Below, piece by piece: positions 15,484 through 33,632 of a stretch of DNA of 52,155 nt (its first letter is position 1; the number at the start of each line of letters is the position of its first letter). The notes under the pieces are model-generated. The model was given only the letters and a program-made list of their open reading frames with translations. It did no database searches and was not told the DNA's origin. The stretch lies in NCBI GenBank assembly GCA_002313255.1, contig DCBA01000127.1, positions 5,005 through 57,159 of the forward strand. The letters run 5' to 3'. Source of the stretch: Gammaproteobacteria bacterium UBA1119 (GTDB lineage: Bacteria; Pseudomonadota; Gammaproteobacteria; Pseudomonadales; Azotimanducaceae). The translations under genes were made by a program, and so were the position numbers.

Positions 15484-16608
15484 CTAAACGGCGAGTTGAA
15501 ACAATTGAGCTGCATTGCCACCCATAATCGCCTGCTTTTGCCGTCGATCTAAGGTCGCCACCGATTCGCGTATCTGCTCGGGTGCATTGAGACTTGAGTC
15601 GATGTGCGGATAATCGGACCCCCAAAGGATGTTGTCGTTACCGACCAGATTCATCATGGCGCCGATGGTCCGTTCCTGGGGTTCCGCAACGAAGTAACAG
15701 TTTCGTTGCACGTATTCGCCCGGAGTGAGCGCTAGCGGTTTTGGTGACAACTCGTTAAGCAACTCGTCTTTCTCGTTGAGACGATCCATAAGGTACGCGG
15801 CCCATCCGCAGCCGGCCTCAACGCTCACGACCTTGAGCTGTGGAAAACGATCGAAGAGCCCATCGAGAATGATCGATGACAAGGCAGGAATCATTTGCCC
15901 GGGGGCACCCAGTCCAAAGCCGAAGGTCGGACCGAGCCTAGGTTGCGCGCCGTGCCAACCGGAAAAAGGGACCGCAGCACCGCTAAATCGAACGATCACG
16001 TGGAGGCAACCTGGAAGGTCGGCTTCGGCCAACTGAGCCCATAGGCGATCGAAATGTGGGCTGCCGGGACGTTCACCATCCACGACTTCGGGCGGGACGA
16101 AAATCCCCTTAAACCCGAGTTTTAGGCACCGGGTGAGCTCCAGCGCCGCGTTCTCGACGTCGCGCCAATTTACAACTGCGATAGGAACAATCCTTCCACA
16201 GCCGTCCTGGCTAAATTCGTGCTGCCATGTGTTGTACGCGCGGAAGTAGGCGTTGATCAGATCAAGGTCATCTGTCGGGATCGGCAATATGCCGATAGTC
16301 GGGAACACGACGCATGCGTCGACGCTCCACTCGTCCAGCATCGTGAGCCTCGCATGCGTGTCGTAACTCGCCGGTGGGCAGCCGTCCGCATACCGAAAAC
16401 GGCCTGCGAATATGTCGCGGCGTCGCAAGTTCGCGCCGCCTAAGCCGGCCAGGCCGCCTGGAAGCACAACTTGCTCGGCAATGATCAGGCGCTCGCCGTT
16501 GTGATCGTTCTCGATCCGTATCGCGCGATCTTGATACCGAGTTTCCAAATACCTTTGCCAGAGATCCGCTGGCTCCATTACGTGAGAGTCGCAGTCAACT
16601 ACAAACAA
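15484..16608 (-). CDS. Amidohydrolase family 2 (ACMSD-like) metal-dependent hydrolase or decarboxylase
   Basis: A 374-aa TIM-barrel amidohydrolase of the ACMSD/resorcylate decarboxylase-like group. The N-terminal metal motif appears as CDSHVMEP (residues 6-13), a mid-barrel His lies in GCLHVIV, and the terminal metal Asp lies in LWGSDYPHID. Members hydrolyse or decarboxylate cyclic or aromatic acids using Zn2+. The start is a TTG at 16608 directly before the VVDCDSH strand, and no better in-frame start is visible. It is transcribed alone and converges on the SDR gene. I cannot tell hydrolase from decarboxylase. Confidence 0.88.
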   Translation of the reverse strand: MFVVDCDSHVMEPADLWQRYLETRYQDRAIRIENDHNGERLIIAEQVVLPGGLAGLGGANLRRRDIFAGRFRYADGCPPASYDTHARLTMLDEWSVDACVVFPTIGILPIPTDDLDLINAYFRAYNTWQHEFSQDGCGRIVPIAVVNWRDVENAALELTRCLKLGFKGIFVPPEVVDGERPGSPHFDRLWAQLAEADLPGCLHVIVRFSGAAVPFSGWHGAQPRLGPTFGFGLGAPGQMIPALSSIILDGLFDRFPQLKVVSVEAGCGWAAYLMDRLNEKDELLNELSPKPLALTPGEYVQRNCYFVAEPQERTIGAMMNLVGNDNILWGSDYPHIDSSLNAPEQIRESVATLDRRQKQAIMGGNAAQLFQLAV

Positions 16609-17020
16609 AGTGAATCCTTGGCTTAAGAATTTCTATATTGGGTCCGTCCTCAATGTAAGGGTTGGCGCGAATAAAGCACACGAACACTGACGAATTTTTT
16701 TATCCAATACCGCGCACGAACTAAATGAACGATTACCGTCAACATCGACTCGCGTATCGATCGACTGGCAGAACATGCGCAAGACAGCATATTTTTGGAA
16801 TACAGCAGCTTCTACTGCGAATAAACCTCCATTTGAGACCATGTCGACAGAGTCGTAGACGAATATTCGAAAGTATAACCGCGGTTCGACGTCGCCGGTT
16901 TGGATTGTTTGTTGCGACTGCGATCGGGGAACGAGGTCGATCTGTTCAATTTCATTTGGAGTGGCATACTGACGTCATGAGAAAAGCGGATTTTGTTTTT
17001 GAGAGCGCTTAGGAGAGCCC
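16609..17020. other. 412-bp gene-free spacer between divergent genes
   Basis: This is the longest non-coding stretch of the window. It separates the divergent amidohydrolase and PhyH genes and so should hold both promoters. It is A+T-richer near 16690-16710 (a run of T followed by ATCC). Open frames across it have unconvincing composition, no ribosome-binding site and no recognisable motif. I see no RNA fold, repeat or palindrome I would defend. A good ribosome-binding site (TAGGAGAG) for the PhyH gene lies at its right end. Confidence 0.6.
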
Positions 17021-17920
17021 ATGACGCCTGAAGAAATCCTTGCTCGCCCCGCGAAGATACTTTCGCGAAGCGATCGCGAGTGCTACTTCGAGCACGGCTA
17101 CGTTGGAGCGCCATCTGTTGTGTCGGGAACGTGGCTTGATCGTATCCAATCGTGTTCACAACATTATGTTGACGAGAGTCGCCACGTAAATGACACAGAC
17201 CAAAGATTCGATCTCGAGCCAGATCACACGGCCGAACAACCGAGAATACGGCGATTAAATTCACCCGTGGATGCGGATGAACTTTTTTGGGAATTTGCCT
17301 CGGCGGGGCCCTTTGTGGATATTGCCGAAGACCTGCTTGGACCGGACATCAAGTTCCACCACTCCAAACTCAACTACAAGTGGTCCGGCGGCGGCGAAGA
17401 AGTTAAATGGCACCAAGATATTCAGTTTTGGCCGCACACGAACTATGACGTCCTGACCGTGGGTGTGTATTTAGACGATGTTGCTGCCGATATGGCCCCA
17501 ATGGGTGTCATTCCAGGTAGTCACCAAGGGCCTCTCTACGATTTATACGATCACGATAACGAGTGGACGGGGCACATCCGGAGCGAGGATGTCCCGAACA
17601 TCGCGGCCGAGACGGCGCGTTACATCGCCGGGCCGTCTGGAACTATCACCGTGCATAACTGTCGCTCAATCCACGGGTCGCCCCCGAATTGGAGTGATTG
17701 TCCGAGGCCGTTGCTTCTCTGTGCGTACTCCGCGGGCGACGCTTTGCCGATTACCGACCTCGTTGCACGAGGTCAGCACGGTGACGAGGTCGTAAGAGGC
17801 ATTCGGTCTCGTTGGGCTCGTTTCGATCCTCGACCTGTTCTGATGCCGCCGGATTGGAGCCGGACCGGCCATAAATCCATCTTTCAACATCAACAAGCGG
17901 AACAGACTCAAGGCATGTAG
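17021..17920 (+). CDS. Phytanoyl-CoA dioxygenase family (PhyH) Fe(II)/2-oxoglutarate oxygenase
   Basis: A 299-aa cytoplasmic oxygenase of the PhyH family. The iron-binding facial triad is visible: His131 and Asp133 in WHQDIQFWPH, and the distal His about 218 in SIHGSPPN. The 2-oxoglutarate-binding Arg follows in CPRPLLL (about 229). The motif MGVIPGSHQGP is the usual PhyH loop. These enzymes hydroxylate branched or methylated acyl chains and small natural products. The ATG at 17021 follows TAGGAGAG. It converges on fbiC with a 37-bp gap. It has low similarity to the second PhyH gene at 24586, so a recent duplication is unlikely. Confidence 0.92.
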   Translation: MTPEEILARPAKILSRSDRECYFEHGYVGAPSVVSGTWLDRIQSCSQHYVDESRHVNDTDQRFDLEPDHTAEQPRIRRLNSPVDADELFWEFASAGPFVDIAEDLLGPDIKFHHSKLNYKWSGGGEEVKWHQDIQFWPHTNYDVLTVGVYLDDVAADMAPMGVIPGSHQGPLYDLYDHDNEWTGHIRSEDVPNIAAETARYIAGPSGTITVHNCRSIHGSPPNWSDCPRPLLLCAYSAGDALPITDLVARGQHGDEVVRGIRSRWARFDPRPVLMPPDWSRTGHKSIFQHQQAEQTQGM

Positions 17921-17957: not shown

Positions 17958-20441
17958 CTAGTCCAATGAGATCACGCGGACGGAATCGTCGTTGCGCACC
18001 AACTCGTGGCTACGTTTTCTCTCATACTTTTTGGCGGGCGTATTGATGATGTCCGTCAAGATTCCTGCAGTTGAACCGCGCACGACGTCGGCATCTCGTG
18101 CGTCATCGTAGAGCGTTGTGCGTTGCCGAGCTGTACGTCCGGCCGACTCGATCATGTGCTGCATTTCCTCGGGTGAGGTCTCCTGTCCGTGTTGTGTCCC
18201 CGCAGCGCGTGAAATGCTCTCGTTCATTAATGTTCCCCCGAGATCGTTACAACCCGCATTGAGCGCAGCGCTGACTCCCTCGTGACCCATTTTCACCCAA
18301 CTTGCTTGAATGTTGGTGATGTGTGGATGTAGTGCGAGTCGAGCGACGGCGTGTACCAGAATCGTTTCCCGGAATGTCGGTCCACGCCGCGCTTTCCCTT
18401 TCAGATACATCGGAGCTTCCATGTGAACGAAGGGTAGGGGCACAAATTCAGTAAATCCGCCTGTTTTCTTCTGTAGATCCCGGACACGGATAAGGTGTCT
18501 TGCCCAGTGAATCGGCTCGTCGACGTGGCCATACATAATCGTTGCCGTGGATCTAAATCCGACACGGTGAGCGGTTTCCATGACTTCGAGCCATTGCGCA
18601 GTATTGATCTTGTCCGGGCAGATCACGGAGCGTACTTCGTCATCAAGAATTTCGGCGGCCGTTCCGGGGAGCGTATTTAGGCCGGCTTTTTTCAGTTCGG
18701 TTAAATAACCTTCAAGGGAATGATTGGATGTAGCTGCTCCTTGCCATACTTCGAGCGGTGAAAAAGCATGTAGATGCATTTCGGGAACTGCTTCTTTGAC
18801 GGTTTTGACGATATCGATGTAGGTCTGTCCGGTGTATTCAGGGTGGATGCCCCCTTGCATACAGACTTCCGTACCGCCGCGGTCCCAGGCTTCGACCACC
18901 CGCCGTTGAATTTCTTCGCCGCTCAAATCGTAGGGTCGTCCCCGTAGATTTTCCGATAACTTCCCTTTGGAAAAAGCGCAGAACTGGCACTTGAAATAAC
19001 AGATGTTGGTGTAATTGATGTTGCGATTGACGACAAAGGAAACGGTATTTCCGTTGATTTCGTCTCGTAATTGGTTTGCCGACTGGACCACAGCATTGAA
19101 GTCGTCGCCCCGGGCTTGAATAAGGCGGACGATTTCCCGCTCGTCAAGGTCATTTCCGTTACCAATCCCTTTCAAAATGGCCGCGATGTCGGTGGACACT
19201 ACAGAGGGTTCTTGGGTAATGCGTGTGAGTACCTCGGCGGGTGGAGGCGAGGTGTCGCCTGGACACCAGGGGTCGATCCGCGGAAATCCCTCACCGTCGA
19301 TGCGGTCAAGGACGCTTGCTACCATCGAATCGTCAACCCACGTTGCCGCATCAATCGCGTAATTCGGATAGATAGTGAGGCGCTCATGCAGGTGCTTGCC
19401 GGCCAGCGCAGTCTCGCGCGATAGCTCGTCGAGCTGAGGCCACGGCGCTTCCGGATTAACAAAATCTGGAGTGACGGGTGAAACGCCGCCCCAATCGTTG
19501 ATACCAGCATCGACGATTTGTGGTAAGACCCCCGGACTTAGGTTTGGGGGCGCTTGGATACTCATTGAGGCCCCAAAGAGTATGCGGGTCACGGCGATGG
19601 TCCACAGTAGGTCGTCGAGATCAGGTTCGGGCGCCAGGCGCATCTTCGTGCCTGGTTTTGCGCGGAAATTTTGCACGATAATTTCTTGAACGTGACCAAA
19701 TTCCCGATGAATGTCCCGTATCGCCAGAAGCGATTCAATGCGTTCGCGACGAGTCTCACCGATGCCAATAAGAATCCCGGTTGTGAAAGGCACGCGTGCC
19801 GCGCCAGCGTCCCGAAGGGTTTGCAGCCGCACCGCCGGTATCTTGTCGGGCGAACCGTGGTGCGGCATTCCTTTTTTGGTCAAACGTTCCGATGCGGACT
19901 CAAGCATGATGCCCATTGACGGGGACACTGGCCGTAATGTTTGGATCTCACTGGGAGTCATGTTGCCAGGATTAAGGTGGGGTAGTAATCCCGTTTCTTC
20001 ATAGACGGCGCGGGCCGCATGGGCTAGGTAATCGAGCGTTGATTGATAACCATTTTCGGCGAGCCATTCGCGCGCGACACGGTAGCGTAACTCCGGTTTT
20101 TCGCCGAGGGTGAACAGGGCTTCTTTGCACCCGATATTCGCACCCTGCTTGGCGACATCCAGAACCTGAGGGATCTCCATGAATGGGTGATCCAGTTTTT
20201 TTGGCGTCTGTGCAAAGGTGCAGTAGTGGCACACATCACGGCAAAGGTGAGTCAGCGGGATAAATACCTTCTTCGAATATGTGACAACGTTACGAAAGCC
20301 TTGATCGCGCAGGACTGAGGCAACACGAGCGAGAGCCTTTGTATCGGTAAAATCGGCGAAGGCTAACGCTTCGTTCATGCTTGGGGTTGCCCCAGCGAGC
20401 GCCTTGTCTAAAATAACTTGGACCACTACTTTATTACTCAT
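17958..20441 (-). CDS. fbiC: FbiC: fused CofG-CofH, F420 chromophore (Fo) synthase
   Basis: An 827-aa protein with two radical-SAM domains. It makes the deazaflavin Fo from tyrosine and 5-amino-6-ribitylamino-uracil. The N-terminal (CofG) half has the [4Fe-4S] cysteines in CRDVCHYC (Cys67, 71, 74); the C-terminal (CofH) half has them in CYFKCQFC at about residues 477-484. The order CofG-CofH and the length match actinobacterial FbiC. It is the last gene of the operon; its ATG lies inside cofC (8-bp overlap). Archaea and cyanobacteria use separate CofG and CofH, so the fused form points to the bacterial FbiC lineage. Very confident. Confidence 0.97.
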   Translation of the reverse strand: MSNKVVVQVILDKALAGATPSMNEALAFADFTDTKALARVASVLRDQGFRNVVTYSKKVFIPLTHLCRDVCHYCTFAQTPKKLDHPFMEIPQVLDVAKQGANIGCKEALFTLGEKPELRYRVAREWLAENGYQSTLDYLAHAARAVYEETGLLPHLNPGNMTPSEIQTLRPVSPSMGIMLESASERLTKKGMPHHGSPDKIPAVRLQTLRDAGAARVPFTTGILIGIGETRRERIESLLAIRDIHREFGHVQEIIVQNFRAKPGTKMRLAPEPDLDDLLWTIAVTRILFGASMSIQAPPNLSPGVLPQIVDAGINDWGGVSPVTPDFVNPEAPWPQLDELSRETALAGKHLHERLTIYPNYAIDAATWVDDSMVASVLDRIDGEGFPRIDPWCPGDTSPPPAEVLTRITQEPSVVSTDIAAILKGIGNGNDLDEREIVRLIQARGDDFNAVVQSANQLRDEINGNTVSFVVNRNINYTNICYFKCQFCAFSKGKLSENLRGRPYDLSGEEIQRRVVEAWDRGGTEVCMQGGIHPEYTGQTYIDIVKTVKEAVPEMHLHAFSPLEVWQGAATSNHSLEGYLTELKKAGLNTLPGTAAEILDDEVRSVICPDKINTAQWLEVMETAHRVGFRSTATIMYGHVDEPIHWARHLIRVRDLQKKTGGFTEFVPLPFVHMEAPMYLKGKARRGPTFRETILVHAVARLALHPHITNIQASWVKMGHEGVSAALNAGCNDLGGTLMNESISRAAGTQHGQETSPEEMQHMIESAGRTARQRTTLYDDARDADVVRGSTAGILTDIINTPAKKYERKRSHELVRNDDSVRVISLD

Positions 20442-21114
20442 TTCCGCGATCGTGAGCGGGGAATCTATTATCGTTAGCGAACAGCCGAGATGCTATACCA
20501 CTTTTCTTTAAGAAACGTAGGGTGGCGATATCGCGGTCTTTCCGAGCGAGTTCAATCAGTTCGTTGATCGTATCGATATCCAGACTGAATCCGGGTAACC
20601 GGAGAACTCGCGGTTGATAACCGGCTTGGGTGGCTTCCCGTCGATGCGGCTTGAAACTTTTCCCGTCAAACAAGTAACGAAACGCATTCGGAGGGCTTGA
20701 TAGTAGGCCGTTGGTTCCGACGTCGTTTCGATCGGGAATTATCGTTACGTCGAGATGATTCTTAATCGCGGTGTCGATTTCTTCGCTAGTGATGAGCGGT
20801 ACATCACCGGGAACGAAGAACGTGCCAGTAGCGCCGTACGTGTTAACGACGTGGTGGCCGGCCTCGACGACAGCACCGGAAAGATCGTCAGCCCGATCGG
20901 CGTACAGTTCCACCTCGTGCCGACGTGCAAATCCGCCGGCCTCGGACGCTCGGGATACGACCACGACGCCTTTTAGAAGCTGGGAATTTGTGAGGGCATA
21001 AAGGACATCGTCGAGCATGTTAATCACAAGCTCATGTCGCTCATCGGCCGAAAGATGGCTGGCTAAGCGGCCTTTCGCTGCAACCGAACCTTTGAATGGC
21101 ACCACAGCCCACAT
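20434..21114 (-). CDS. cofC: CofC/FbiD: phospholactate (or PEP/3-phosphoglycerate) guanylyltransferase
   Basis: A 226-aa nucleotidyltransferase of the CofC family, which activates a three-carbon phosphate with GTP for F420 side-chain assembly. The N-terminal nucleotide motif is VVPFKGSVAAKGRL (residues 4-17). The metal-binding motif VPGDVPLIT lies mid-protein and TNGLLSSPP near residue 137. Archaeal CofC prefers 2-phospholactate, mycobacterial FbiD phosphoenolpyruvate, and a Paraburkholderia enzyme 3-phosphoglycerate. The sequence alone does not tell me which is used here. ATG at 21114, 5 bp after cofD; its end overlaps fbiC by 8 bp. Confidence 0.93.
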   Translation of the reverse strand: MWAVVPFKGSVAAKGRLASHLSADERHELVINMLDDVLYALTNSQLLKGVVVVSRASEAGGFARRHEVELYADRADDLSGAVVEAGHHVVNTYGATGTFFVPGDVPLITSEEIDTAIKNHLDVTIIPDRNDVGTNGLLSSPPNAFRYLFDGKSFKPHRREATQAGYQPRVLRLPGFSLDIDTINELIELARKDRDIATLRFLKKSGIASRLFANDNRFPAHDRGNE

Positions 21115-21119
21115 TTTCG

Positions 21120-22049
21120 TCAGGAAATCTTTTCGATGAATTCCACGACCGCGTGGGCGAGTGCCACACGATCGTCCAAAGTTACCATGACTGTGGGCCG
21201 CACGTCCGTCGACAACCCAAGATCCTGAACGCTACTTTTTTCGCTGCGGTCCGCTTCGTCAAGCACGAAACCTGTGATGATGTCGTTATAGTGCTTTGCC
21301 ACCTCAATGGCAGTGCTCGGAACATTGAGTTCTTTCATCATTTTGGCAGTTGGACCCTTGATAGCTTTCCCTCCCACGATAGGCGATATGGCAACCACGG
21401 GTATTTCCGACTGTTGTATCGCTTTTTTCATTCCGGGGATCGCGAGGATCGGGTCGACGGATACAAACGGGTTAGAAGGACAGATAATGACGCCGTCGAC
21501 CTCGTTGAATTTGATGGCGGGATTTACTCGTGCGTCGGCGACACCTCGGAATTCAAACCCAGAAACGCTGGGTTTGCAGCGATCGCGGACGAAGTAATGC
21601 TGAAACAGGAGGGCGCCGTTGGATGTATTGACGAAGGTCTGCACTGGGTCGTCGCTCATTGGTAGGATTTCGTGACGTATTCCGAGCTTGGTGGCGATTT
21701 CGCGCGTGGTTTCTGTAAGAGTTAAGCCTGCGGCGAGTCGCTCACGACGATAAACGTGCAGTGCAAGATCCCGATCACCGAGGCGAAACCAAGTCGGCTC
21801 GTCAAGGTCCTTGAGTGCGTCCATAAAGTGCCAACTTTCGTTTTGAGTGCCCCAGCCAGTGTCCTGGTTGGATTTCCCGGCGAGCGTATAGGTCAACGTA
21901 TCGACATCCGGTGAAATATGGAAACCGAGATGGTTGAAGTCGTCGCCGGTATTAACCACAAAAGCCAGTTCATCGGCTCCGACTACATGTGATAAACCGA
22001 GTGCTAACTTGGCACCACCGACGCCGCCAGTGAACGCCAGATATTTCAA
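21120..22049 (-). CDS. cofD: CofD/FbiA: transferase joining Fo to the phosphorylated C3 unit
   Basis: A 309-aa 2-phospho-L-lactate transferase that attaches the activated three-carbon phosphate to Fo, giving F420-0 or dehydro-F420-0. The N-terminal glycine-rich motif FTGGVGGAKLALGL (residues 6-19) and NTGDDFNHLG (about 33) are diagnostic, as are the later CPSNPFVSVDPIL and ISPIVGGKAIKGPT. Length matches the family. The start is a TTG at 22049 overlapping the cofE stop (TTGA), with GAAGAGGA about 10 nt upstream. Third gene of the F420 operon. Confidence 0.97.
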   Translation of the reverse strand: MKYLAFTGGVGGAKLALGLSHVVGADELAFVVNTGDDFNHLGFHISPDVDTLTYTLAGKSNQDTGWGTQNESWHFMDALKDLDEPTWFRLGDRDLALHVYRRERLAAGLTLTETTREIATKLGIRHEILPMSDDPVQTFVNTSNGALLFQHYFVRDRCKPSVSGFEFRGVADARVNPAIKFNEVDGVIICPSNPFVSVDPILAIPGMKKAIQQSEIPVVAISPIVGGKAIKGPTAKMMKELNVPSTAIEVAKHYNDIITGFVLDEADRSEKSSVQDLGLSTDVRPTVMVTLDDRVALAHAVVEFIEKIS

Positions 22050-22804
22050 AGAAATAGGTCCTCTTCGATGGGTCGGTTGATCATCGCTGCGGTTTGGTCA
22101 CTGGGTTCGTAATCAAATCCGCGAACGATGGCTACAGGGATTTGCTCCGTTGTCTCACCCATGATTAATGTCGCAGCCGTTGCAATGCTGTCTGCTCGGT
22201 TAATGAGCGTTACTTTTAATTCGCGGCCGTATAGGTCGGTTCCACCGCGATGATCGTCAAGCACGGTAAATCCTGAAGCGCCAATCGCAATACCGGTCGT
22301 TCCTAGGCGCCAAGGTCGATTGCCAGAATCTGAGATAAGGACACCGATCTCTTTGCCCAAGCGATGGCGAATTGCATCGCGAAGGCTCTTGGCACTGGCG
22401 TCAGGGTCGAGGGGTAAGAGCAGGGCTGCGTCACCGTCAGCATGGTCAATGTTCGATTGATCGACGCCCGCGTGAGCACCAACGTGTCCGAGTCGATGCC
22501 GCATAATCATTACGCCGGGTTTGTGACGGACGACGGCTTCCGATTCGCGCAGGATAACTTCCACGAGGCGTGGGTCCTTCTCGGTTTCAGTGGCGAGACT
22601 AATGGCCTCCTCCGAGGGTGTGACGGACGCGAGCGATACCAGGCGACCTTCCGCCTTAGAAACGATCTTTTGAGCGATGACGACCACGTCGCCGTCTTCA
22701 AGAGGCTGTCGATTGTCGCGAAGTTGGTTTGTTATCAGGTGTGCCAGGTCGTCGCCCTCGTGGATCATAGGGAGCCCTTTGACCGGTAGCACGCGCATTT
22801 CCAT
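22046..22804 (-). CDS. cofE: CofE: F420-0 gamma-glutamyl ligase
   Basis: A 252-aa single-domain ligase that adds glutamates to F420-0 using GTP. The N-terminus reads LPVKGLPMIHEGDDLAHLI, the family's usual opening. Later motifs are VVIAQKIVSKAEGR, LISDSGNRPWRLGTTGIAIG and LYGRELKVT. It lacks the C-terminal nitroreductase-like domain of mycobacterial FbiB, which reduces dehydro-F420-0 when PEP is the precursor. Start chosen at the ATG at 22804 (4 bp after npdG, with GGAG from the npdG 3' end) rather than an upstream ORF start inside npdG. Overlaps cofD by 4 bp. Confidence 0.96.
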   Translation of the reverse strand: MEMRVLPVKGLPMIHEGDDLAHLITNQLRDNRQPLEDGDVVVIAQKIVSKAEGRLVSLASVTPSEEAISLATETEKDPRLVEVILRESEAVVRHKPGVMIMRHRLGHVGAHAGVDQSNIDHADGDAALLLPLDPDASAKSLRDAIRHRLGKEIGVLISDSGNRPWRLGTTGIAIGASGFTVLDDHRGGTDLYGRELKVTLINRADSIATAATLIMGETTEQIPVAIVRGFDYEPSDQTAAMINRPIEEDLFL

Positions 22805-22808
22805 GAAT

Positions 22809-23471
22809 TTAGTGCTCCGATTGCCCGACGATTTGAAGACCGGAATGCGCAATGTCGTGACGCCGATTGATTTGGATCAGGACGCTGGTCAAGGCCTCGG
22901 CCGCGGCTGAGTTTTCGATGGGCCCGGCGTGCCATCCTGTCAAGCCCGCTTGTTGCGCTAGTTGAATCACTTTGTCTCGAGCCGAACGTTTATTCCCGGC
23001 CACAAGGACATCGCACTCGATCGTGACGTCCTCTTTCAGCAAGTGCGCCGCCACGTTTTGGAACGCGGTCACGACGTGGACATCGTCACCGAGGAAGTCT
23101 TGTGCTCGTTTACCCGCGCTGCCTTCTGGCGGGAGCTGTACCGTACCCACTTTGGGCGGTACCAGGGGTACAGTCACATCGATCAATATTTTGCCAAAAA
23201 GGCCAGACTTAACCGTTTCCAGAGTCGATATCTGATGTTCCGCCGGTACCGTGAGCACGACGATATCGCCCTCGGCTGCTGCATCCGCATTCTCCATGGC
23301 GGCGGCGGGTGTCGTAGGACTGATCTTTTCAAGGTCGGCAACAGCAGCCTGTGCTTTCGTCAAGGTGCGTGAGCCGATTACAATTTTGTAACCTGCTTTC
23401 GACCAACGAATAGCAAGGCCGGTCCCGAGATCACCTGTACCTCCGAGGATCGCGATGGTTTCGTCTGGCAA
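22809..23471 (-). CDS. npdG: NADPH-dependent F420 reductase (NpdG/Fno)
   Basis: A 220-aa Rossmann-fold oxidoreductase that moves hydride between NADP(H) and F420. The N-terminal motif AILGGTGDLGTGLA (residues 7-20) and the NADP-binding IGSRT (about 32) are clear. VLTVPAEHQ and LIDVTVPLVPP follow as in Fno. It leads the F420 operon. Since no F420-dependent glucose-6-phosphate dehydrogenase is present in the window, it is the likely local source of F420H2. The start is TTG at 23471; there is no ATG nearby. It is divergent from an LLM oxidoreductase gene, which may share its control region. Confidence 0.93.
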   Translation of the reverse strand: MPDETIAILGGTGDLGTGLAIRWSKAGYKIVIGSRTLTKAQAAVADLEKISPTTPAAAMENADAAAEGDIVVLTVPAEHQISTLETVKSGLFGKILIDVTVPLVPPKVGTVQLPPEGSAGKRAQDFLGDDVHVVTAFQNVAAHLLKEDVTIECDVLVAGNKRSARDKVIQLAQQAGLTGWHAGPIENSAAAEALTSVLIQINRRHDIAHSGLQIVGQSEH

Positions 23472-23648
23472 CGTAATTACCCTAGTTGAGAAAGCGCGGG
23501 ATTATCTTCTTTTTCGCTTTGTTGATGCTAGACCCATGCGCATATACGAGTGATACCCGAGTGTTAGTCGAGACATGGATGTTGAAAAGTCTTGAATCAG
23601 TCTGAATCACACGACAGGATGACGGTTCACACAATACAAGGGGGCGGT
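23472..23648. promoter_or_regulatory. Shared divergent promoter region of the F420 operon and an LLM gene
   Basis: The 177-bp spacer between the TTG of npdG and the chosen ATG of the LLM gene must hold promoters for both directions. Its centre is A+T-rich (around 23500-23530). AAGGGGG at 23638-23644 is the LLM ribosome-binding site. I could not define an operator or a convincing -35/-10 pair. The placement suggests joint control of F420 synthesis and an F420 user, which is inference. Confidence 0.4.
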
Positions 23649-24560
23649 ATGCAAATTGGTGTCATGATCGGCGCGGACGGGGCCGCTAATACCATTGACG
23701 GCGTGGTGAACTTCGCACAGAACGTCGAAGCGAAGGGATTACATAACGTTTGGATGGCCAATATTTTTGGTTTCGACGCAATATCGACACTATCGATTGT
23801 GGGCCGAGAAACGCAGCGGATCGGTCTGGGGACGGCGGTTACGCCAACGTATCCCCGCCACCCAACGGCGCTTGCGCAACAGGCGATGACGGCCGCAGCG
23901 GCGACGGGGAATCGTTTCACGTTAGGTATTGGTCTTTCGCACAAAATCGTCATAGAGAACATGCTTGGATTCTCCTACGATCGTCCCGCCGCTCATATGC
24001 GCGAATACCTCGAGGTACTTATGCCGCTGTTGTCGGGGGAGTCCGTCAACCATCAAGGTGAGCAATACAATGTGGGTGGATTGCAATTATCGATCCCCGG
24101 GGCAGACCCGGTGCCGACGGTGGTCGCTGCGTTAGGACCGTTGATGCTCAAGATCGCTGGCGAACATACTGACGGGACCAATACCTGGATGGTTGGTCCT
24201 AAAACCATGGAAAATCACATCGTTGCCCGGATCAGCCGAGCAGCTGACGAGGCCGGGCGTCCTTCGCCGCGAGTGGTGGGGGGTGTACCCGTCATTCTCA
24301 CGCGTAAGGTTGAAGAGGCACGACAGCGTATTGCAGGCGGATTGGCGATGTACGGGCAGTTGCCATCTTATCGAGCGATGCTCGACCGGGAAGGGGTCGA
24401 CGGTCCTGCCGACATCGCCATCGTGGGTGATGAGAACGCGCTCCGTGGTGAGATCGACCGCTACCGGAACGCTGGCGTCACGGATTTCAACGCTGCAATC
24501 ATGGGAGTGGAGGAGGGCGCCTTTGACCGTACTTTGGACTTTCTAGCAAGCATGGTGTGA
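23649..24560 (+). CDS. LLM-class (luciferase-like) oxidoreductase, probably F420-dependent
   Basis: A 303-aa TIM-barrel protein of the luciferase-like family. It has the N-terminal strand IGVMIGADG, then VWMANIFGFDAIS, RIGLGTAVTPTYPRHP and FTLGIGLSHK. These are the usual barrel strands and the F420/FMN phosphate-binding region. It resembles actinobacterial F420-dependent LLM proteins more than FMN-dependent alkane sulfonate types. Divergence from the F420 operon makes F420H2 the likely cofactor. Start chosen at the ATG at 23649, with AAGGGGG upstream; a longer frame from 23592 has no site. Substrate unknown. Confidence 0.88.
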   Translation: MQIGVMIGADGAANTIDGVVNFAQNVEAKGLHNVWMANIFGFDAISTLSIVGRETQRIGLGTAVTPTYPRHPTALAQQAMTAAAATGNRFTLGIGLSHKIVIENMLGFSYDRPAAHMREYLEVLMPLLSGESVNHQGEQYNVGGLQLSIPGADPVPTVVAALGPLMLKIAGEHTDGTNTWMVGPKTMENHIVARISRAADEAGRPSPRVVGGVPVILTRKVEEARQRIAGGLAMYGQLPSYRAMLDREGVDGPADIAIVGDENALRGEIDRYRNAGVTDFNAAIMGVEEGAFDRTLDFLASMV

Positions 24561-24585: not shown

Positions 24586-25404
24586 CTAACTAGGCGGTAG
24601 CTCGTCGCGGTATTTACGGCCTCTGTATTTGGGGTCGATCAGGGCCTTTGGATGCCGTCCGTTAACGGAACCCTTAAATCCGGGATCGATGACGCTATAA
24701 CCCAATAACGCTTGGATTCTGGGGCTAAATAAAGCTGCTGTTGCCGGAGGGACCGCGAGCGACATATTTTCGAGCTGTCTCATGTTCGGATCGCAATATT
24801 GGATCGTGATACCAAGTCGATGTTGAGCGGATCGGTTGGCGCCCCCGCGGTGGAACAGATTACCGGCGAAAATTAGGACCGCGCCTGCTGGCATATTGAT
24901 CGCCGTGCTCCCGCGTTCTTGAGGTTTGCGACCTTCCGACCAGTGGTGACTCCCAGGGATGACTTCGGTCGCCCCGTTGTCGGAGGTGAAATCATCCAAC
25001 GCCCACATCGTACTGACCCCTAGCATGGCACGCGGTTGAGGAATAGGGAGCGCGTTTCCCCCGTCGTCGATATGAAAACGTTGGGAGGTTTCGCCTGGAT
25101 GTAAATTGATGGCGAGAGCAGCCGAAAGAAGATGGTTCTTTGGGAGCAGTGCATTGACGATCGCCAGAGTTTCTCGGTGCTCTACCATGGCGGCGATTTC
25201 GGGCACTTTTGCGAGCAGTGCGTAGACGCGCTCGGATCGAATCCCCTCAAAATCGTTTCGACCCATCCGAGTGCCTTGAAGCCATGGATCGAGTCCGAGG
25301 CGAATTGCAGATCTTACTTCTGGCGGCAAGGCGTCTTTAATGACTGTAAACCCGTCGCGACGGATGTTGTCGAGGGCTGTCTCGGTGAAGTTCTTCGGGT
25401 TCAT
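24586..25404 (-). CDS. Phytanoyl-CoA dioxygenase family (PhyH) oxygenase, second copy
   Basis: A 272-aa Fe(II)/2-oxoglutarate-type oxygenase. The metal triad is visible as His111 and Asp113 in FHIDDGGNALP, and the distal His about 183 in NLFHRGGANRS, whose following Arg is the likely 2-oxoglutarate ligand. VIPGSHHWSEGR is the family loop. Its termini and spacing differ from the 17021 gene, so they belong to different PhyH branches. Single gene, convergent with the LLM gene (25-bp gap) and divergent from an SDR. The substrate may be a branched or isoprenoid acid, but this is by family only. Confidence 0.92.
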   Translation of the reverse strand: MNPKNFTETALDNIRRDGFTVIKDALPPEVRSAIRLGLDPWLQGTRMGRNDFEGIRSERVYALLAKVPEIAAMVEHRETLAIVNALLPKNHLLSAALAINLHPGETSQRFHIDDGGNALPIPQPRAMLGVSTMWALDDFTSDNGATEVIPGSHHWSEGRKPQERGSTAINMPAGAVLIFAGNLFHRGGANRSAQHRLGITIQYCDPNMRQLENMSLAVPPATAALFSPRIQALLGYSVIDPGFKGSVNGRHPKALIDPKYRGRKYRDELPPS

Positions 25405-25452
25405 ATCCAGATCCTATGCTAACGTGCGGCGTTTTTCTAAGAAGGAACGAGG

Positions 25453-26232
25453 GTGAGAAATCTCAAGGACAAACTCGCGTGGATTACCGGTGCCGGTACC
25501 GGGATTGGCGAGGGATCAGCTAAGGCGTTGGCGAGGCACGGCATGCGGGTGGTGTTGTCGGGACGGCGGCGTGAAATGCTCGAAGCTGTTGCGGAAGGAA
25601 TTGAGGGCGACGTTGTTGTTGAGCCATTAGACGTGGCGGATCGCGATGCCGTGAATGACGTTGCCTCTCGGGTTTTGGCTCAACACGGACCTATTGATAC
25701 GCTCGTCCTTAGCGCGGGGATCAACGTCAAGAAACGTAATTGGCACAACGTTTCACTGGATGATTGGGACAATGTCATACGCATCGACTTGGATGGTGCG
25801 TTTTACTGTGCCAAGGCCGTCTTGCCAAGCATGATTGATAATGGTGGCGGGCTAATCGTCAATATTTCTTCTTGGGCCGGTCGTCAGGTCAGCATTGTCA
25901 CGGGACCCGCATACACGGCTGCTAAACACGCGATGAACGCGATGAACGAAAGTTTGAACATGGAGGCAGGGCTTTACGGCGTGCGCGCTTGCGCGATTTG
26001 TCCGGGTGAGGTCGCGACGCCTATTCTCGATAACCGACCGATACCCGTAAGCGACGAAGATAGGGCGCAAATGGTCCAGTCCGATGATTGCGGGGATGTG
26101 GTGGCGTTTATTGCCCAACTCCCGGAGCACGTGTGCATCAACGAGTTAACGATCAGTCCAACGTGGAATAGGGGCTACGTCGCACAAGCACAGCGTATGC
26201 TGCAGTCGACCGAAGAGCCTCAAAAAGTGTGA
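25453..26232 (+). CDS. Short-chain dehydrogenase/reductase (SDR)
   Basis: A 259-aa classical SDR. The cofactor motif TGAGTGIG (about residues 12-19), LSAGIN in place of NNAG (about 88), the Ser region NISSWAG (about 140) and the catalytic YTAAK (about 157) are present. The Arg-rich end of strand 2 (SGRRRE) indicates a preference for NADP(H). GTG start at 25453 following AAGGAACGAGG. The gene converges on the second LLM with a 5-bp gap. NADP specificity fits a keto-reductase or a hydroxy-oxidation partner of the nearby oxygenase, which is inference. Confidence 0.92.
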   Translation: MRNLKDKLAWITGAGTGIGEGSAKALARHGMRVVLSGRRREMLEAVAEGIEGDVVVEPLDVADRDAVNDVASRVLAQHGPIDTLVLSAGINVKKRNWHNVSLDDWDNVIRIDLDGAFYCAKAVLPSMIDNGGGLIVNISSWAGRQVSIVTGPAYTAAKHAMNAMNESLNMEAGLYGVRACAICPGEVATPILDNRPIPVSDEDRAQMVQSDDCGDVVAFIAQLPEHVCINELTISPTWNRGYVAQAQRMLQSTEEPQKV

Positions 26233-26237
26233 CAGGG

Positions 26238-27161
26238 CTAATTGAGCGCGGCGACGCTGGGAAGAACTTTCTCCACCAGTAGTCGCGTTTGGTCCAGCAT
26301 GTCTTCGGTCCCTGACGCGATGGGACGCAATACGAATTTGTGGACTCCCGCTTGCCGAAATTCATCGAGCAGTGCCATGATTTCCGGGGCGCCGCCGATA
26401 GCCGTGTACTTGGACGGATCCTGGCCCATACGTCCAGAGAGAACTTTGTTGTAGCGCGCAATGATCGGCTCCTCAGATGAACCAAACCGAAATCCAAAGC
26501 CAGCGCCAAAATGATCCTCATCAATCGTACGTCCGATAGCGATGGCCTTTTCCTTGATGGCTTTGATGACGGGGGCTACCTGATCGGCCGATTCGATGCC
26601 AGCTTGCCAACCCGTTCCCCAACGCGCGGTGCGTTCGATGGCTTTGAGCGAGGAGCCACCAACCCATAGTGGTAGTGGTTTCTGGACGGGTCTCGGAGTG
26701 ATCGAAGCTCCGTCCAGTTGGTAGCACTCGCCAGCGAACGACACGCTTTCCTCGGACCAGAGCCGTGAAAGGATCACCAAGCCTTCGTCCATCCTTTTCC
26801 CGCGGCCCGCAGTGGGTGTGCCTGTTGCAACGTAATCCCGCGACCGGCTACTGCCGATTCCGAAAGCGGGCAACAATCTGCCGTCTGAAAGAACGTCGAT
26901 CGTCGCGCACTGCTTTGCAGTGAGTACCGGATCGCGAAGCCCTAGACTCGCGACATTCATTCCGAACTTGATTCGTTTGGTCCTACCTGCCAACGCGGCC
27001 ATAACGCTCATGCATTCGAGGTTGGCGTCGGTACTGATGATTCGATCAGACTGCCAGATCGAATCAACACCGCTAGAATCGCAAAGGTCGATCCACTTCC
27101 AAAAACCCTTGGTGTCATCAAAATTAAAGTTTGCGATACCAATTCCAGCACTAATGGTCAT
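26238..27161 (-). CDS. LLM-class oxidoreductase, second in window
   Basis: A 307-aa luciferase-like TIM barrel. The strands GIGIANFNFDD, VDSIWQSDRI, RIKFGMNVASLGLRDP and LLPAFGIGSSRSRDY are typical, as is LPLWVGGSS in the C-terminal half. F420 is the likely but unproved cofactor given the operon 3 kb away. I chose the ATG at 27161, which overlaps the stop of the upstream permease chimera as ATGA; the longer frame from 27272 would lie within that gene. It is therefore attached to the remnant of an oligopeptide importer operon. Confidence 0.87.
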   Translation of the reverse strand: MTISAGIGIANFNFDDTKGFWKWIDLCDSSGVDSIWQSDRIISTDANLECMSVMAALAGRTKRIKFGMNVASLGLRDPVLTAKQCATIDVLSDGRLLPAFGIGSSRSRDYVATGTPTAGRGKRMDEGLVILSRLWSEESVSFAGECYQLDGASITPRPVQKPLPLWVGGSSLKAIERTARWGTGWQAGIESADQVAPVIKAIKEKAIAIGRTIDEDHFGAGFGFRFGSSEEPIIARYNKVLSGRMGQDPSKYTAIGGAPEIMALLDEFRQAGVHKFVLRPIASGTEDMLDQTRLLVEKVLPSVAALN

Positions 27162-27565
27162 AGCCGAACTCCTTTTTCTTGAGGGTCCATCGCGTCGCGC
27201 AGTTGATCCCCTGCGACATTCAAAACCAGTAGCGTTACAGCTAAAAATGTAGCGGGGAAAATGAGTTGCCATGGAGCGTGCAATCGAGTCGCACCGTCGG
27301 CGATAAGCACGCCCCAGCTCGTCTGCGGTTCTTGAATACCGAGCCCTAGAAAGCTAATGAAACTTTCTGCAATGATGACCCCAGGGATTGTAAGCGATGC
27401 ATAACCTAATGCGGGGCCCATTAGGTTGGGGATAACGTGCCTTGTCACGATCCACGGGTCAGGTACACCCAATGCTTTTGCAGCCTCGATGTACATTGCG
27501 TTTTTCACGACGAGCCACAAGGTGGCTAGGGCAAAGGCAAGTCGGCGAAAGATGAATCGGGTCAC
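27158..27565 (-). pseudogene. In-frame chimera of two oligopeptide permeases (DppB start fused to DppC end)
   Basis: A 135-aa open frame that cannot be a working permease. The first about 19 residues (MTRFIFRRLAFALATLWLV) are the N-terminal helix of a DppB/OppB permease. From about residue 20 it continues as the last third of a DppC/OppC permease: the EAA motif EAAKALGVPDPWIVTRHVIP, then ESFISFLGLGIQEP and the closing LRDAMDPQ. Intact dppB and dppC are about 310 and 290 codons, so roughly 1.4 kb appears to be missing between the two halves, and the junction (near 27505) is in frame. GTG start, 6 bp after the binding-protein gene. A small functional membrane protein is possible but unlikely. 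Confidence 0.82.
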
Positions 27566-27571
27566 GGAACG

Positions 27572-29107
27572 TTATTTCCAATGAAGGTAGCGAGCCCCGT
27601 GAACGTTCCGGGGGTTAATGTGCCAGCCGAGGAGGTGGGGATGGACCAGGCTACGTATCATGACCGAGTACAGTGGAATGACACCGAAATCCCGTAAACC
27701 TTCAATTTCGGCGCCCTTGAGTAACGTTATCCTCGTTTCAAGGTCAGCGGTGCGTTTGGCTTGGCGCATGAGTCGATCGTACTTAGGAGACATATAACGC
27801 CCATAGTTCACGTCCCCTATGTCGGACATGAGCAATTCAAGGTAGTGCTCGGGATTGTTTTCACCAAACCAACCCGCATGGGCAACCTGGAAGCTGCCCT
27901 GCCGAAGATCGGCGAAGTGTACGTTGAGCTCCGCGTGGTGCAAGCTTGTTTGGACGCCCACCGATCGCCACATCGACGCGATCGCGATTAGGATTCGTTT
28001 GTTCTCGTCCCCGGTAAAGTAACGAAGGGTGAGTTTCAGCGGATTGTCTTGAGCGAAACCTGCGGCGCGAAGCAGATCGCGTGCGAGCGCCCTGTCGGGA
28101 AGCTGGGTCGTTGCGGTTGGATAATTCGTCACCATTGAGGGTACGAGCCCGTAGCTAACTAGCTCGCCGCTTTTCAAGACCTTTTCGGTGAGAATGCGTC
28201 GGTCTATCGCGAGCGCGAGCGCCTTACGAACGCGCGCGTCATTGAACGGAGGTTCCGATACGTTAAACACCAGGTACATGATGGAAAGTAGCGGGGATAC
28301 GCGGACGTGGTCGGCCATATGTTGTCGCAACCAACGAAGTTCGCCAGCAGGGAATTCGAGGATCGCGTCGAGTTCACCGGCCCGATAACGGTTAAGTGCC
28401 GTCGTGGCGTTTTGAACGGGGATATAACGAACCCCAGGAAGGGCTACGTTAACTGCGTCATAAAAATGTTGATTCTTAGCCAGCTCGACGAATCCTTGCG
28501 GACGCCAATCCGCAAGGATAAACGCGCCGTTGGTGACCATGTTTCCGGGTTTTACCCAGGCGTCACCGTGCGCTGCGATTGCGTGAGGTGGCACGGGATA
28601 AGCTGTGGGGTAGAGCAAACGCTCGGCAAAAAAAGGAAAAGGTTTTTCTAATTCGATTGCAAGGCGATGCATGGTCAGAGCCGTAACGCCCAATGAGTTG
28701 AGCGGCGCGTTGCCCGAATTAATGGCTTCGGCGTTTTTGATCGGGTACATAAAAAAAGCGAGACTTGACGCAGTCTCGGGGTTCAGCAGACGTCGGTACG
28801 AAAAGACGAAGTCTTCGGCGGTGACGGGTTCACCGTCGCTCCATCGCGCGTTGGGCCGCAGTTCGAACGTCCAAGTCAAACCGTCGGGCGAAACGTTCCA
28901 CGAAATTGCCGCGCCTGGAACGATGTGGCCAGCCGAGTTCATGGTCGTTAGTCCGAGGTATAGGTCATTGAGGATGGTCTCCTCAAGCCTCAAGTTGTAT
29001 CGATGTGGGTCTAGGGTCGCAGGTTCGCCCGTGTTCCCGATACGAATGAAATTGGCTAGGCCGTTTACGCAACACCACAAAGCCGATAAAAGCAAAAAGA
29101 CGCGCAT
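27572..29107 (-). CDS. Oligopeptide/dipeptide ABC transporter substrate-binding protein (SBP family 5)
   Basis: A 511-aa periplasmic binding protein. The signal peptide is MRVFLLLSALWCCVNGLA. It is followed by the family-5 opening GEPATLDPHRYN and by LYLGLTT, WTFELRPNARWSDGEPVTAEDF, FNVSEPPFNDARVRKALALA and the C-terminal IPLYS. These are OppA/DppA landmarks over the full usual length. Start chosen at the ATG at 29107, since the signal peptide begins there. Only a permease remnant follows and no ATPase genes lie nearby, so the protein is probably an orphan unless it uses another transporter. Divergent from the PRISE-type reductase gene. Confidence 0.92.
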   Translation of the reverse strand: MRVFLLLSALWCCVNGLANFIRIGNTGEPATLDPHRYNLRLEETILNDLYLGLTTMNSAGHIVPGAAISWNVSPDGLTWTFELRPNARWSDGEPVTAEDFVFSYRRLLNPETASSLAFFMYPIKNAEAINSGNAPLNSLGVTALTMHRLAIELEKPFPFFAERLLYPTAYPVPPHAIAAHGDAWVKPGNMVTNGAFILADWRPQGFVELAKNQHFYDAVNVALPGVRYIPVQNATTALNRYRAGELDAILEFPAGELRWLRQHMADHVRVSPLLSIMYLVFNVSEPPFNDARVRKALALAIDRRILTEKVLKSGELVSYGLVPSMVTNYPTATTQLPDRALARDLLRAAGFAQDNPLKLTLRYFTGDENKRILIAIASMWRSVGVQTSLHHAELNVHFADLRQGSFQVAHAGWFGENNPEHYLELLMSDIGDVNYGRYMSPKYDRLMRQAKRTADLETRITLLKGAEIEGLRDFGVIPLYSVMIRSLVHPHLLGWHINPRNVHGARYLHWK

Positions 29108-29173
29108 CGGGGATACGATACGCAATGGTCGAGTGGCAAGCAAAACGGCACAATGCGTATACGCTGAGCTAAA

Positions 29174-32585: not shown

Positions 32586-33632
32586 ATGAAAGTTAGCATC
32601 GGGGTAGGCAGTGCGGCGTCAGGACAAGAACGCGACTTTGATCGTCAAGTCGATTATGTCGTGGAAGCTGAAAAGTTAGGCGTAGACGCCGTGTGGTCGG
32701 CGGAGGCATGGGGGCAGGATGCCGTTGCACCGCTCGCGTACCTCGCCGCGAAAACTGATCGCATCAAACTTGGTACCGGGATTATGCAAATTAGTGCGAG
32801 AACCCCGTCAATGACTGCCATGACTGCATTGACGATGGCTGCGCTTTCAAACGACCGTTTTTTACTCGGTCTCGGTGTTTCGGGACCGCAAGTGGTTGAG
32901 GGCCTTCAAGGCCGCTCATTTGAGGGCCCGTTGACACGATTACGTGAAACGATCGAAATCATTCGCCTCGCATTTCAAGGAGAAAAGCTCGCATACGAAG
33001 GTAAATACCATACCTTGCCGCTTCCAGGCGGCGAAGGTAAAGCACTGCGTTTAGCGCAGCCTGGCAACCAAGAAATACCCATCTACCTTGCCACGCTTGG
33101 GCCGCGGGCTTTGGAATTGACAGGTGAACTAGCCGATGGTTGGTTAGGGACTTCGTTCACTCCGTCCTATGCGAATGCCCATCTAGACTTTATTTCGCGA
33201 GGGGCTGAAGCTCACGGACGTTCGCTGGTTGATATCGATATTCAAGCTGGAGGCACCGTGGCTTTTGAAGCGGATATGGCAGGCGTGATGGGTTCTCTCA
33301 AAGCCGGCATGGCATTTACGCTGGGGGCTATGGGGTCAGCTAAAACGAATTTCTATAACGACGCGTACAAGCGGGGCGGATGGGAGGACGCGGCAAACGA
33401 GGTGCAAGGGTTGTGGGTGGCAGGTCGTCGCGATGAGGCCATCGCAAAGGTACCGGAGGAAATGGTTCTACAATCGAACTTAGTGGGTGACAAAAAGGCA
33501 ATACGAGAAAGGCTCCAGGCATACAAACGCGCGGGCGTTTCCACGCTGAGGGTTCAACCGGCGGGCCAGAATTTGGATGACCGACTCAAAACGTTGGGTG
33601 AGACGCTAGATCTAATAGACGACCTCGATTGA
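32586..33632 (+). CDS. LLM-class oxidoreductase, F420-dependent type, third in window
   Basis: A 348-aa luciferase-like TIM barrel. Barrel landmarks are VDAVWSAEAWGQDAV, RIKLGTGIMQISARTP and LLGLGVSGPQVVEG. The last of these resembles the F420-dependent methylene-H4MPT reductase and mycobacterial LLM pattern. PIYLATLGPRALELTGELADG closes the barrel core. ATG at 32586, in a 177-bp spacer shared with the divergent cfa gene. A small membrane protein follows after 15 bp. F420 use is inferred from family and from the operon in this window; the substrate is unknown. Confidence 0.9.
   Translation: MKVSIGVGSAASGQERDFDRQVDYVVEAEKLGVDAVWSAEAWGQDAVAPLAYLAAKTDRIKLGTGIMQISARTPSMTAMTALTMAALSNDRFLLGLGVSGPQVVEGLQGRSFEGPLTRLRETIEIIRLAFQGEKLAYEGKYHTLPLPGGEGKALRLAQPGNQEIPIYLATLGPRALELTGELADGWLGTSFTPSYANAHLDFISRGAEAHGRSLVDIDIQAGGTVAFEADMAGVMGSLKAGMAFTLGAMGSAKTNFYNDAYKRGGWEDAANEVQGLWVAGRRDEAIAKVPEEMVLQSNLVGDKKAIRERLQAYKRAGVSTLRVQPAGQNLDDRLKTLGETLDLIDDLD

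Follow-up and report, generated by a model that had tools for sequence, protein, structure and literature searches.

A complete coenzyme F420 operon in a gammaproteobacterial genome with many luciferase-like oxidoreductase genes

The window analysed here, a 52,155-nt stretch of contig DCBA01000127.1 (assembly GCA_002313255.1) to which all coordinates refer, comes from a gammaproteobacterial metagenome-assembled genome (MAG) of 2.78 Mb in 139 contigs, with a completeness of 93.5%. It carries a complete operon for coenzyme F420, npdG-cofE-cofD-cofC-fbiC (Table 1), of a known proteobacterial kind. With a probability of roughly 0.7, we read this operon as a working F420 pathway that feeds a set of luciferase-like (LLM) and FDOR-type oxidoreductases, the three-carbon acid of the cofactor being probably not 3-phosphoglycerate (3-PG), and 2-phospho-L-lactate (2-PL) being narrowly favoured. 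Why newly identified producers such as the Proteobacteria make F420 was listed as unanswered by Grinter and Greening (PMC8498797; this and the other papers are cited here from parts of their text). The window's lineage is suited to testing that question, having near-universal F420 genes in the sampled family, numerous candidate users and named operon-bearing strains. It is worth following for this near-universality, for the link to LLM expansion and for the question of the precursor.

The F420 operon and its spread

All five proteins exceed their NCBIfam cut-offs: FbiC scores 1167.5 bits against 1018 (CofGH), CofC 140.2 against 105, CofD 277.5 against 257.45, CofE 280.1 against 180.65 and NpdG 192.1 against 149.8. 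Four bp separate the npdG stop from the cofE start (ATG at 22804), cofE and cofD overlap by 4 bp, cofD and cofC are 5 bp apart, and cofC and fbiC overlap by 8 bp. Gene order, strands and all four junctions are as the initial annotation gave them, and its reading of a single tight operon is supported. FbiC is, as had been proposed, the fused CofG-CofH form: it passes the CofGH cut-off and has two radical-SAM motifs, CRDVCHYC and CYFKCQFC, both CxxxCxxC motifs recurring in 37/37 full-length relatives checked. Catalytic motifs are present in CofC and FbiC, and among solved structures NpdG most resembles F420:NADP oxidoreductases. In base composition the operon matches the remainder of the window.

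We infer a pathway in which FbiC would make FO, CofC would couple a three-carbon phospho-acid to guanosine monophosphate (GMP), CofD would transfer the three-carbon acid onto FO, and CofE would append the glutamate tail. NpdG would then give the F420 hydride from NADPH, and F420H2 would serve many LLM oxidoreductases, including the divergent LLM1, as well as three FDOR-type reductases. Were the three-carbon acid 2-PL, later reduction would be unneeded.

The best 80 of 586 FbiC relatives were kept and their loci fetched. Most are titled Gammaproteobacteria or Pseudomonadales, and among them are a single cell of the K189A clade as well as Litorivivens and Neomelitea strains; the named strains Litorivivens lipolytica (L103) and Neomelitea salexigens (L107) carry the operon. 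Among these 80, the nearest named FbiC is that of Gammaproteobacteria bacterium SP3050, at 95% identity. Gene order was testable in the 60 loci with 4.8 kb or more of sequence on the upstream side of fbiC. The complete operon, with the window's gene order and all genes on the same strand, is present in 41, cofE-cofD-cofC-fbiC without npdG in 10, and another arrangement in 9. Because 41/60 relatives share order and strand, the five-gene arrangement is not due to chance.

A census covered 151 genomes of the window's family (f1) and 293 genomes drawn evenly from its order. CofH-model matches at E 0.001 proved unspecific, being found in 11/14 control genomes as well, so only matches over the cut-off were counted. 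Such matches occur in 137/151 family genomes (148 have a match of any strength) and in 77/293 order genomes, making F420 a near core trait of the family that is patchy in the order. The earlier statement that F420 is rare in proteobacteria thus fails for this lineage.

A transfer of the pathway had also been suggested. A quick FbiC tree with 57 rows carries a long-branch warning, is poorly rootable and holds two actinobacterial rows. These two stand apart with support 100, and the proteobacterial FbiC lie together. Judged by eye, the rows of the window's family form two clades, one of 16 rows and one of 5; six changes are needed to place the family label on the tree, in part since the named loci have no such code. 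The topology seems easier to reconcile with an old transfer and mainly vertical descent thereafter than with a recent arrival.

Candidate users of the cofactor

Across the promoter region an LLM gene (LLM1) diverges from npdG, as initially described; it scores 334.7 bits against a cut-off of 234.25 for TIGR03564, and among solved structures the F420-dependent methylene-H4MPT reductase 1z69 is its best relative. The three LLM genes reported near the operon are all present as Bac_luciferase genes in the 23.6–33.6 kb part of the window, LLM2 and LLM3 lying within 10 kb. The genome as a whole has 50 PF00296 (LLM) genes, beside 45 predicted for Mycobacterium smegmatis (PMC8498797). A family scan took in 47 of the 50; LLM2 was scanned separately and two genes on contig ends were left out. 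At an NCBIfam E-value of 1e-50, the 47 give 35 memberships in ten families whose names say F420-dependent and 5 in families named otherwise; a gene can be counted more than once, and a family name is no test of cofactor use.

Genes of the F420H2-quinone reductase type (PF04075) number three in the genome and were found in 0/14 control genomes. Among 38 genomes tested, 29 have a PF04075 match: all 22 family members (G102 and G014 weakly) and, outside the family, 7/9 F420-positive and 0/7 F420-negative genomes, the F420-positive G209 and G207 having no match. Three genomes (G039, G053 and G065) have no FbiC over the cut-off yet retain strong PF04075 genes, suggesting that their assemblies may be incomplete.

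Across the order, 55/77 F420-positive vs. 12/214 F420-negative genomes have no fewer than five strong LLM matches (n=291, the ambiguous FbiC of G226 and G248 excluding these two); the genomes are related, so that P values for this contrast should not be read literally, and scored counts go up to 7 per genome, higher counts being unscored first-look candidates. Of the 12 LLM-rich F420-negative genomes, eight come from a single family (f19), whereas 22 of the F420-positive genomes stay below five strong matches. In family f11, first-look LLM counts are 22 and 22 in the genomes listed with F420 and 1, 1, 3 and 2 in those without. An LLM number that always tracks F420 is ruled out by the few LLM genes in F420-positive genomes of families f5, f14, f24, f35 and f41.

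The genome was also searched for FGD (TIGR03554), a gene whose presence elsewhere had been named as weakening the idea of a special route; none exceeds the cut-off, the best match reaching 86.7 vs. 420 bits. Of the two F420-reducing enzymes searched for, NpdG is thus present and FGD not over its cut-off, so that the F420 pool is most likely supplied from NADPH. On plasmids of Leisingera caerulea (L212:4739-13461) and Sinorhizobium meliloti (L213:4852-17868), F420 genes adjoin NAD(P) transhydrogenase genes or lie within ~5 kb of them, which suggests that the NADPH supply for NpdG is co-located there.

The CofC pocket and the three-carbon precursor

Mycobacteria use phosphoenolpyruvate (PEP) and reduce the resulting dehydro intermediate with FbiB, Thermomicrobia also use PEP and reduce with a stand-alone nitroreductase, and Mycetohabitans uses 3-PG, for which reduction is unneeded (PMC8498797, PMC8764529). 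Domain scans found no nitroreductase domain in the window's CofE, confirming that it lacks the FbiB reductase domain. The search for a separate homologue of the FbiB C-terminal domain (TIGR03553), proposed at the outset, found none over the cut-off of 249.55 bits in the 93.5%-complete genome, where the best match reaches 42.1 bits in the genome search and 48.3 bits as a whole protein. Nor did any of the 293 order genomes have one over the cut-off, with at most ten candidates scored per genome; matches of 60–75 bits occur in 14 of them, 6 being F420-positive. Because CofE is without the domain and no FbiB-type reductase exceeds the cut-off, the choice put forward in the initial annotation, that either the precursor is not PEP or another enzyme carries out the reduction, is a real one. 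With neither 3-PG residues nor an FbiB-type reductase, the window's pathway shows neither of the best-described solutions.

The predicted CofC structure has a pLDDT of 95.1 and confirms the fold. Its Z-scores to 7p97 (27.1), 6bwh (25.8), 6bwg (25.4) and 2i5e (25.0) are similar, so the fold does not decide the precursor. At four specificity-linked sites, the window's CofC has L, V, V and D where the 3-PG enzyme has M91, C95, H145 and S162. The last of these is the diagnostic site; among 72 CofC (the window and 71 of the 80 loci) it is D in 44, G in 26 and N in 2, and among 34 further family-labelled CofC it is D in 12 and G in 22, with S or T in none of either set. Litorivivens lipolytica and Neomelitea salexigens both have Gly there. 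Asp is found in 12/18 labelled CofC of the window's family, in addition to the window, and Gly in the other 6 and in 16/16 of other families. On the FbiC tree, D/N vs. G needs two changes, a count that does not separate gain from loss. The metal-binding Asp residues are kept in 72/72, T147 is replaced by Ser in 8/72 and S165 by Gly in 1/72. In published mutants of the 3-PG enzyme, every replacement of S162 except that by T gave a preference for 2-PL and then PEP, the listed ones being E, Y, G and A (PMC8764529, Hasan 2022). Asp is a clade-specific change at a site shown to switch the precursor, and since changes there to E, Y, G and A gave preference for 2-PL and then PEP, it is most simply read as marking a 2-PL/PEP-type enzyme.

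Our single best guess for the precursor is 2-PL, narrowly over PEP, although we put it at somewhat less than an even chance. CofD is more similar to the archaeal CofD 3c3d (216.5 bits) than to the PEP transferase FbiA 6uvx (167.6 bits), a measure of similarity, not of specificity. Under a PEP route, which we regard as a credible second candidate, CofC and CofD would yield dehydro-F420-0, and an FbiE-like stand-alone nitroreductase or another flavoenzyme encoded elsewhere would reduce it. Besides the PEP users named above, a Candidatus Entotheonella CofC/D pair has gained PEP preference (PMC8764529), and the genome encodes five PF00881 nitroreductases, each a weak TIGR03553 match (34–48 bits). 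All 132 nitroreductases of 22 family genomes (18 F420-positive, 4 without FbiC over the cut-off) were clustered. At a 42% identity link, one broad group, holding three of the genome's own five (on contigs C17, C45 and C138), is present in 17/18 F420-positive genomes, and this slightly lowers the odds for 2-PL; the same group is present in 4/4 genomes without FbiC. Links at 45, 50 or 55% give no orthogroup in more than 12/18 F420-positive genomes, the one of the five scored against solved structures favours other nitroreductases (53 bits) over FbiB 4xom (31.6 bits), and the single-contig, F420-positive G036 has two nitroreductases only, one with a close counterpart in our genome. No dedicated, closely conserved FbiE was thus seen among the 22 family genomes, a result still compatible with a diverged one.

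Use of 3-PG as in Mycetohabitans would account simply for the missing reductase, and the 3-PG enzyme is the nearest solved CofC, both being proteobacterial. We nevertheless consider it very improbable, as all four specificity-linked sites differ (H145 mutated alone had no effect; PMC8764529), S or T stands at the diagnostic site in 0/72 and 0/34 CofC, and the acidic S162E is among the changes that lose 3-PG preference (PMC8764529). The restriction of Asp to a set of genera within the family, the two changes on the tree and the lack of a reductase over the cut-off here or in the order would also suit an undescribed precursor, or a dehydro-F420 left unreduced as the final cofactor. This we think unlikely: the side chain at site 162 makes no ligand contact in the 3-PG structure 7p97 (PMC8764529), so Asp may change nothing, and the other checked ligand contacts are kept or nearly so. 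It is similarly a long shot that, with F420 as core metabolism in this marine family and one clade changed at the CofC site known to set the precursor (Gly to Asp, or the reverse), that clade builds a chemically different F420, from a new precursor or with its double bond kept, for an LLM set of M. smegmatis size in a genome under 3 Mb. The preferred reading remains a working pathway with an acid that is probably not 3-PG.

Known systems, variant loci and the surroundings of the operon

The architecture itself is already known, since the same order is annotated on a Paraburkholderia plasmid and npdG-cofD-cofC-fbiC on pSymA. Plasmid PPGU19_p3 of Paraburkholderia sp. PGU19 (NZ_AP023183.1) has the five genes in the window's order, with a stand-alone CofE, a fused FbiC and overlapping cofE-cofD-cofC-fbiC junctions. 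Unlike the window's operon, it is plasmid-borne, its FbiC is 61% identical, and its annotation shows a TIGR03619 LLM gene at a distance of 5 kb downstream but none of family TIGR03564 in divergent orientation. S. meliloti pSymA (CP130049.1) shares the order npdG ... cofD-cofC-fbiC but has no cofE annotated between npdG and cofD, in an annotation table known to be incomplete, and has transhydrogenase genes ~4.5 kb downstream of fbiC. The mycobacterial and actinobacterial Fbi pathway likewise has a fused FbiC (~49% identical to the window's), homologues of the other proteins (CofC/FbiD, CofD/FbiA, CofE/FbiB-N) and many LLM and FDOR candidates; the window differs in lacking the FbiB reductase domain and an FGD over the cut-off and in having npdG in the operon. 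Mycetohabitans is also Gram-negative with a stand-alone CofE, and its CofC is the nearest solved structure, although the window's CofC has none of its four 3-PG-linked residues. Its genome is reported, in the part of PMC8498797 cited here, to be without homologues of known F420-dependent enzymes, in contrast to the many candidates of the window's genome. Tens of LLM paralogues also occur in marine SAR202 (PMC5395668, PMC6946804), a member of another phylum in which the FMNO expansion is read, in the cited parts, as FMN/F420 monooxygenases; in the window's order, LLM expansion accompanies F420 genes. An origin of the genome itself from SAR202 Chloroflexi, which its 50 LLM genes might suggest, is rejected because the FbiC relatives are Gammaproteobacteria.

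Two variant kinds of locus were seen. Elsewhere in the order, outside the window's family, cofC and fbiC form one open frame of about 1000–1110 aa, a CofC-CofG-CofH fusion found in 7/34 cofC loci (L188:6321-9491, + strand; L191:820-4038, - strand; also L187, L193, L195, L197 and L204), with all three parts over the NCBIfam cut-off in the two checked; the fusions named in the cited part of PMC8498797 are FbiC and FbiB only. At loci L194, L196 and L205, from F420-positive genomes of families f5, f24 and f35, CofG and CofH are encoded by separate frames (382–489 aa), the best matches in these genomes being 47–51% identical to the window's FbiC; the 13 kb fetched showed no cofC, cofE or npdG. LLM counts are low in these genomes, and their split loci are a second F420 locus type within the same order.

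Table 1. Features of the F420 region in the window
Feature	Position	Strand	Details
fbiC (fused CofG-CofH, FO synthase)	17958..20441	-	827 aa; two radical-SAM motifs (CxxxCxxC), at residue 67 and residue 481
cofC, guanylyltransferase	20434..21114	-	226 aa; Asp149 codon 20668-20670 aligns with Mycetohabitans S162 and Mycobacterium tuberculosis FbiD G163
cofD, transferase to FO	21120..22049	-	309 aa; TTG start
cofE, F420-0:glutamate ligase, stand-alone	22046..22804	-	252 aa; ATG start
npdG/fno, NADPH:F420 oxidoreductase	22809..23471	-	220 aa; TTG start
Divergent intergenic region npdG/LLM1	23472..23648		177 bp, assuming LLM1 ATG 23649
LLM1, TIGR03564 luciferase-like oxidoreductase, likely F420-dependent	23592..24560	+	303 aa from likely start ATG 23649
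LLM2, luciferase-like oxidoreductase	26238..27272	-	best family TIGR03854, below its cut-off
LLM3, luciferase-like oxidoreductase	32586..33632	+	top PF00296 match of the genome, 242.7 bits

The longest LLM1 frame starts at TTG 23592; judged from the sequence, translation more likely begins at ATG 23649, which follows a run of five G (GGGGG). A search of 23400-23720 gave no sigma-70-like match, so that no promoter can be named. The flanks of the operon (15484-17920 and 24586-29143) encode PhyH-type dioxygenases, an SDR, an amidohydrolase, an oligopeptide-type binding protein and the second LLM; this neighbourhood looks catabolic and is partly kept in relatives. Some relatives have additional genes between cofC and fbiC. 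These were considered as suppliers of the missing step and rejected: their frames, read by eye, are transporter-, GST- and PhyH-like, with nothing suggestive. Three loci (L085, L089 and L099) come from MAGs titled Klebsiella pneumoniae or Verrucomicrobiaceae and have gammaproteobacterial-type F420 genes; these titles are probably wrong, because the L099 FbiC is identical to one from the window's order. A nitroreductase group of 12/18 F420-positive family genomes, not including the window's, lies within ~2 kb of a weak PF04075-like gene in three places (G036:C1:667132-668098, G133:C87 and G102:C51).

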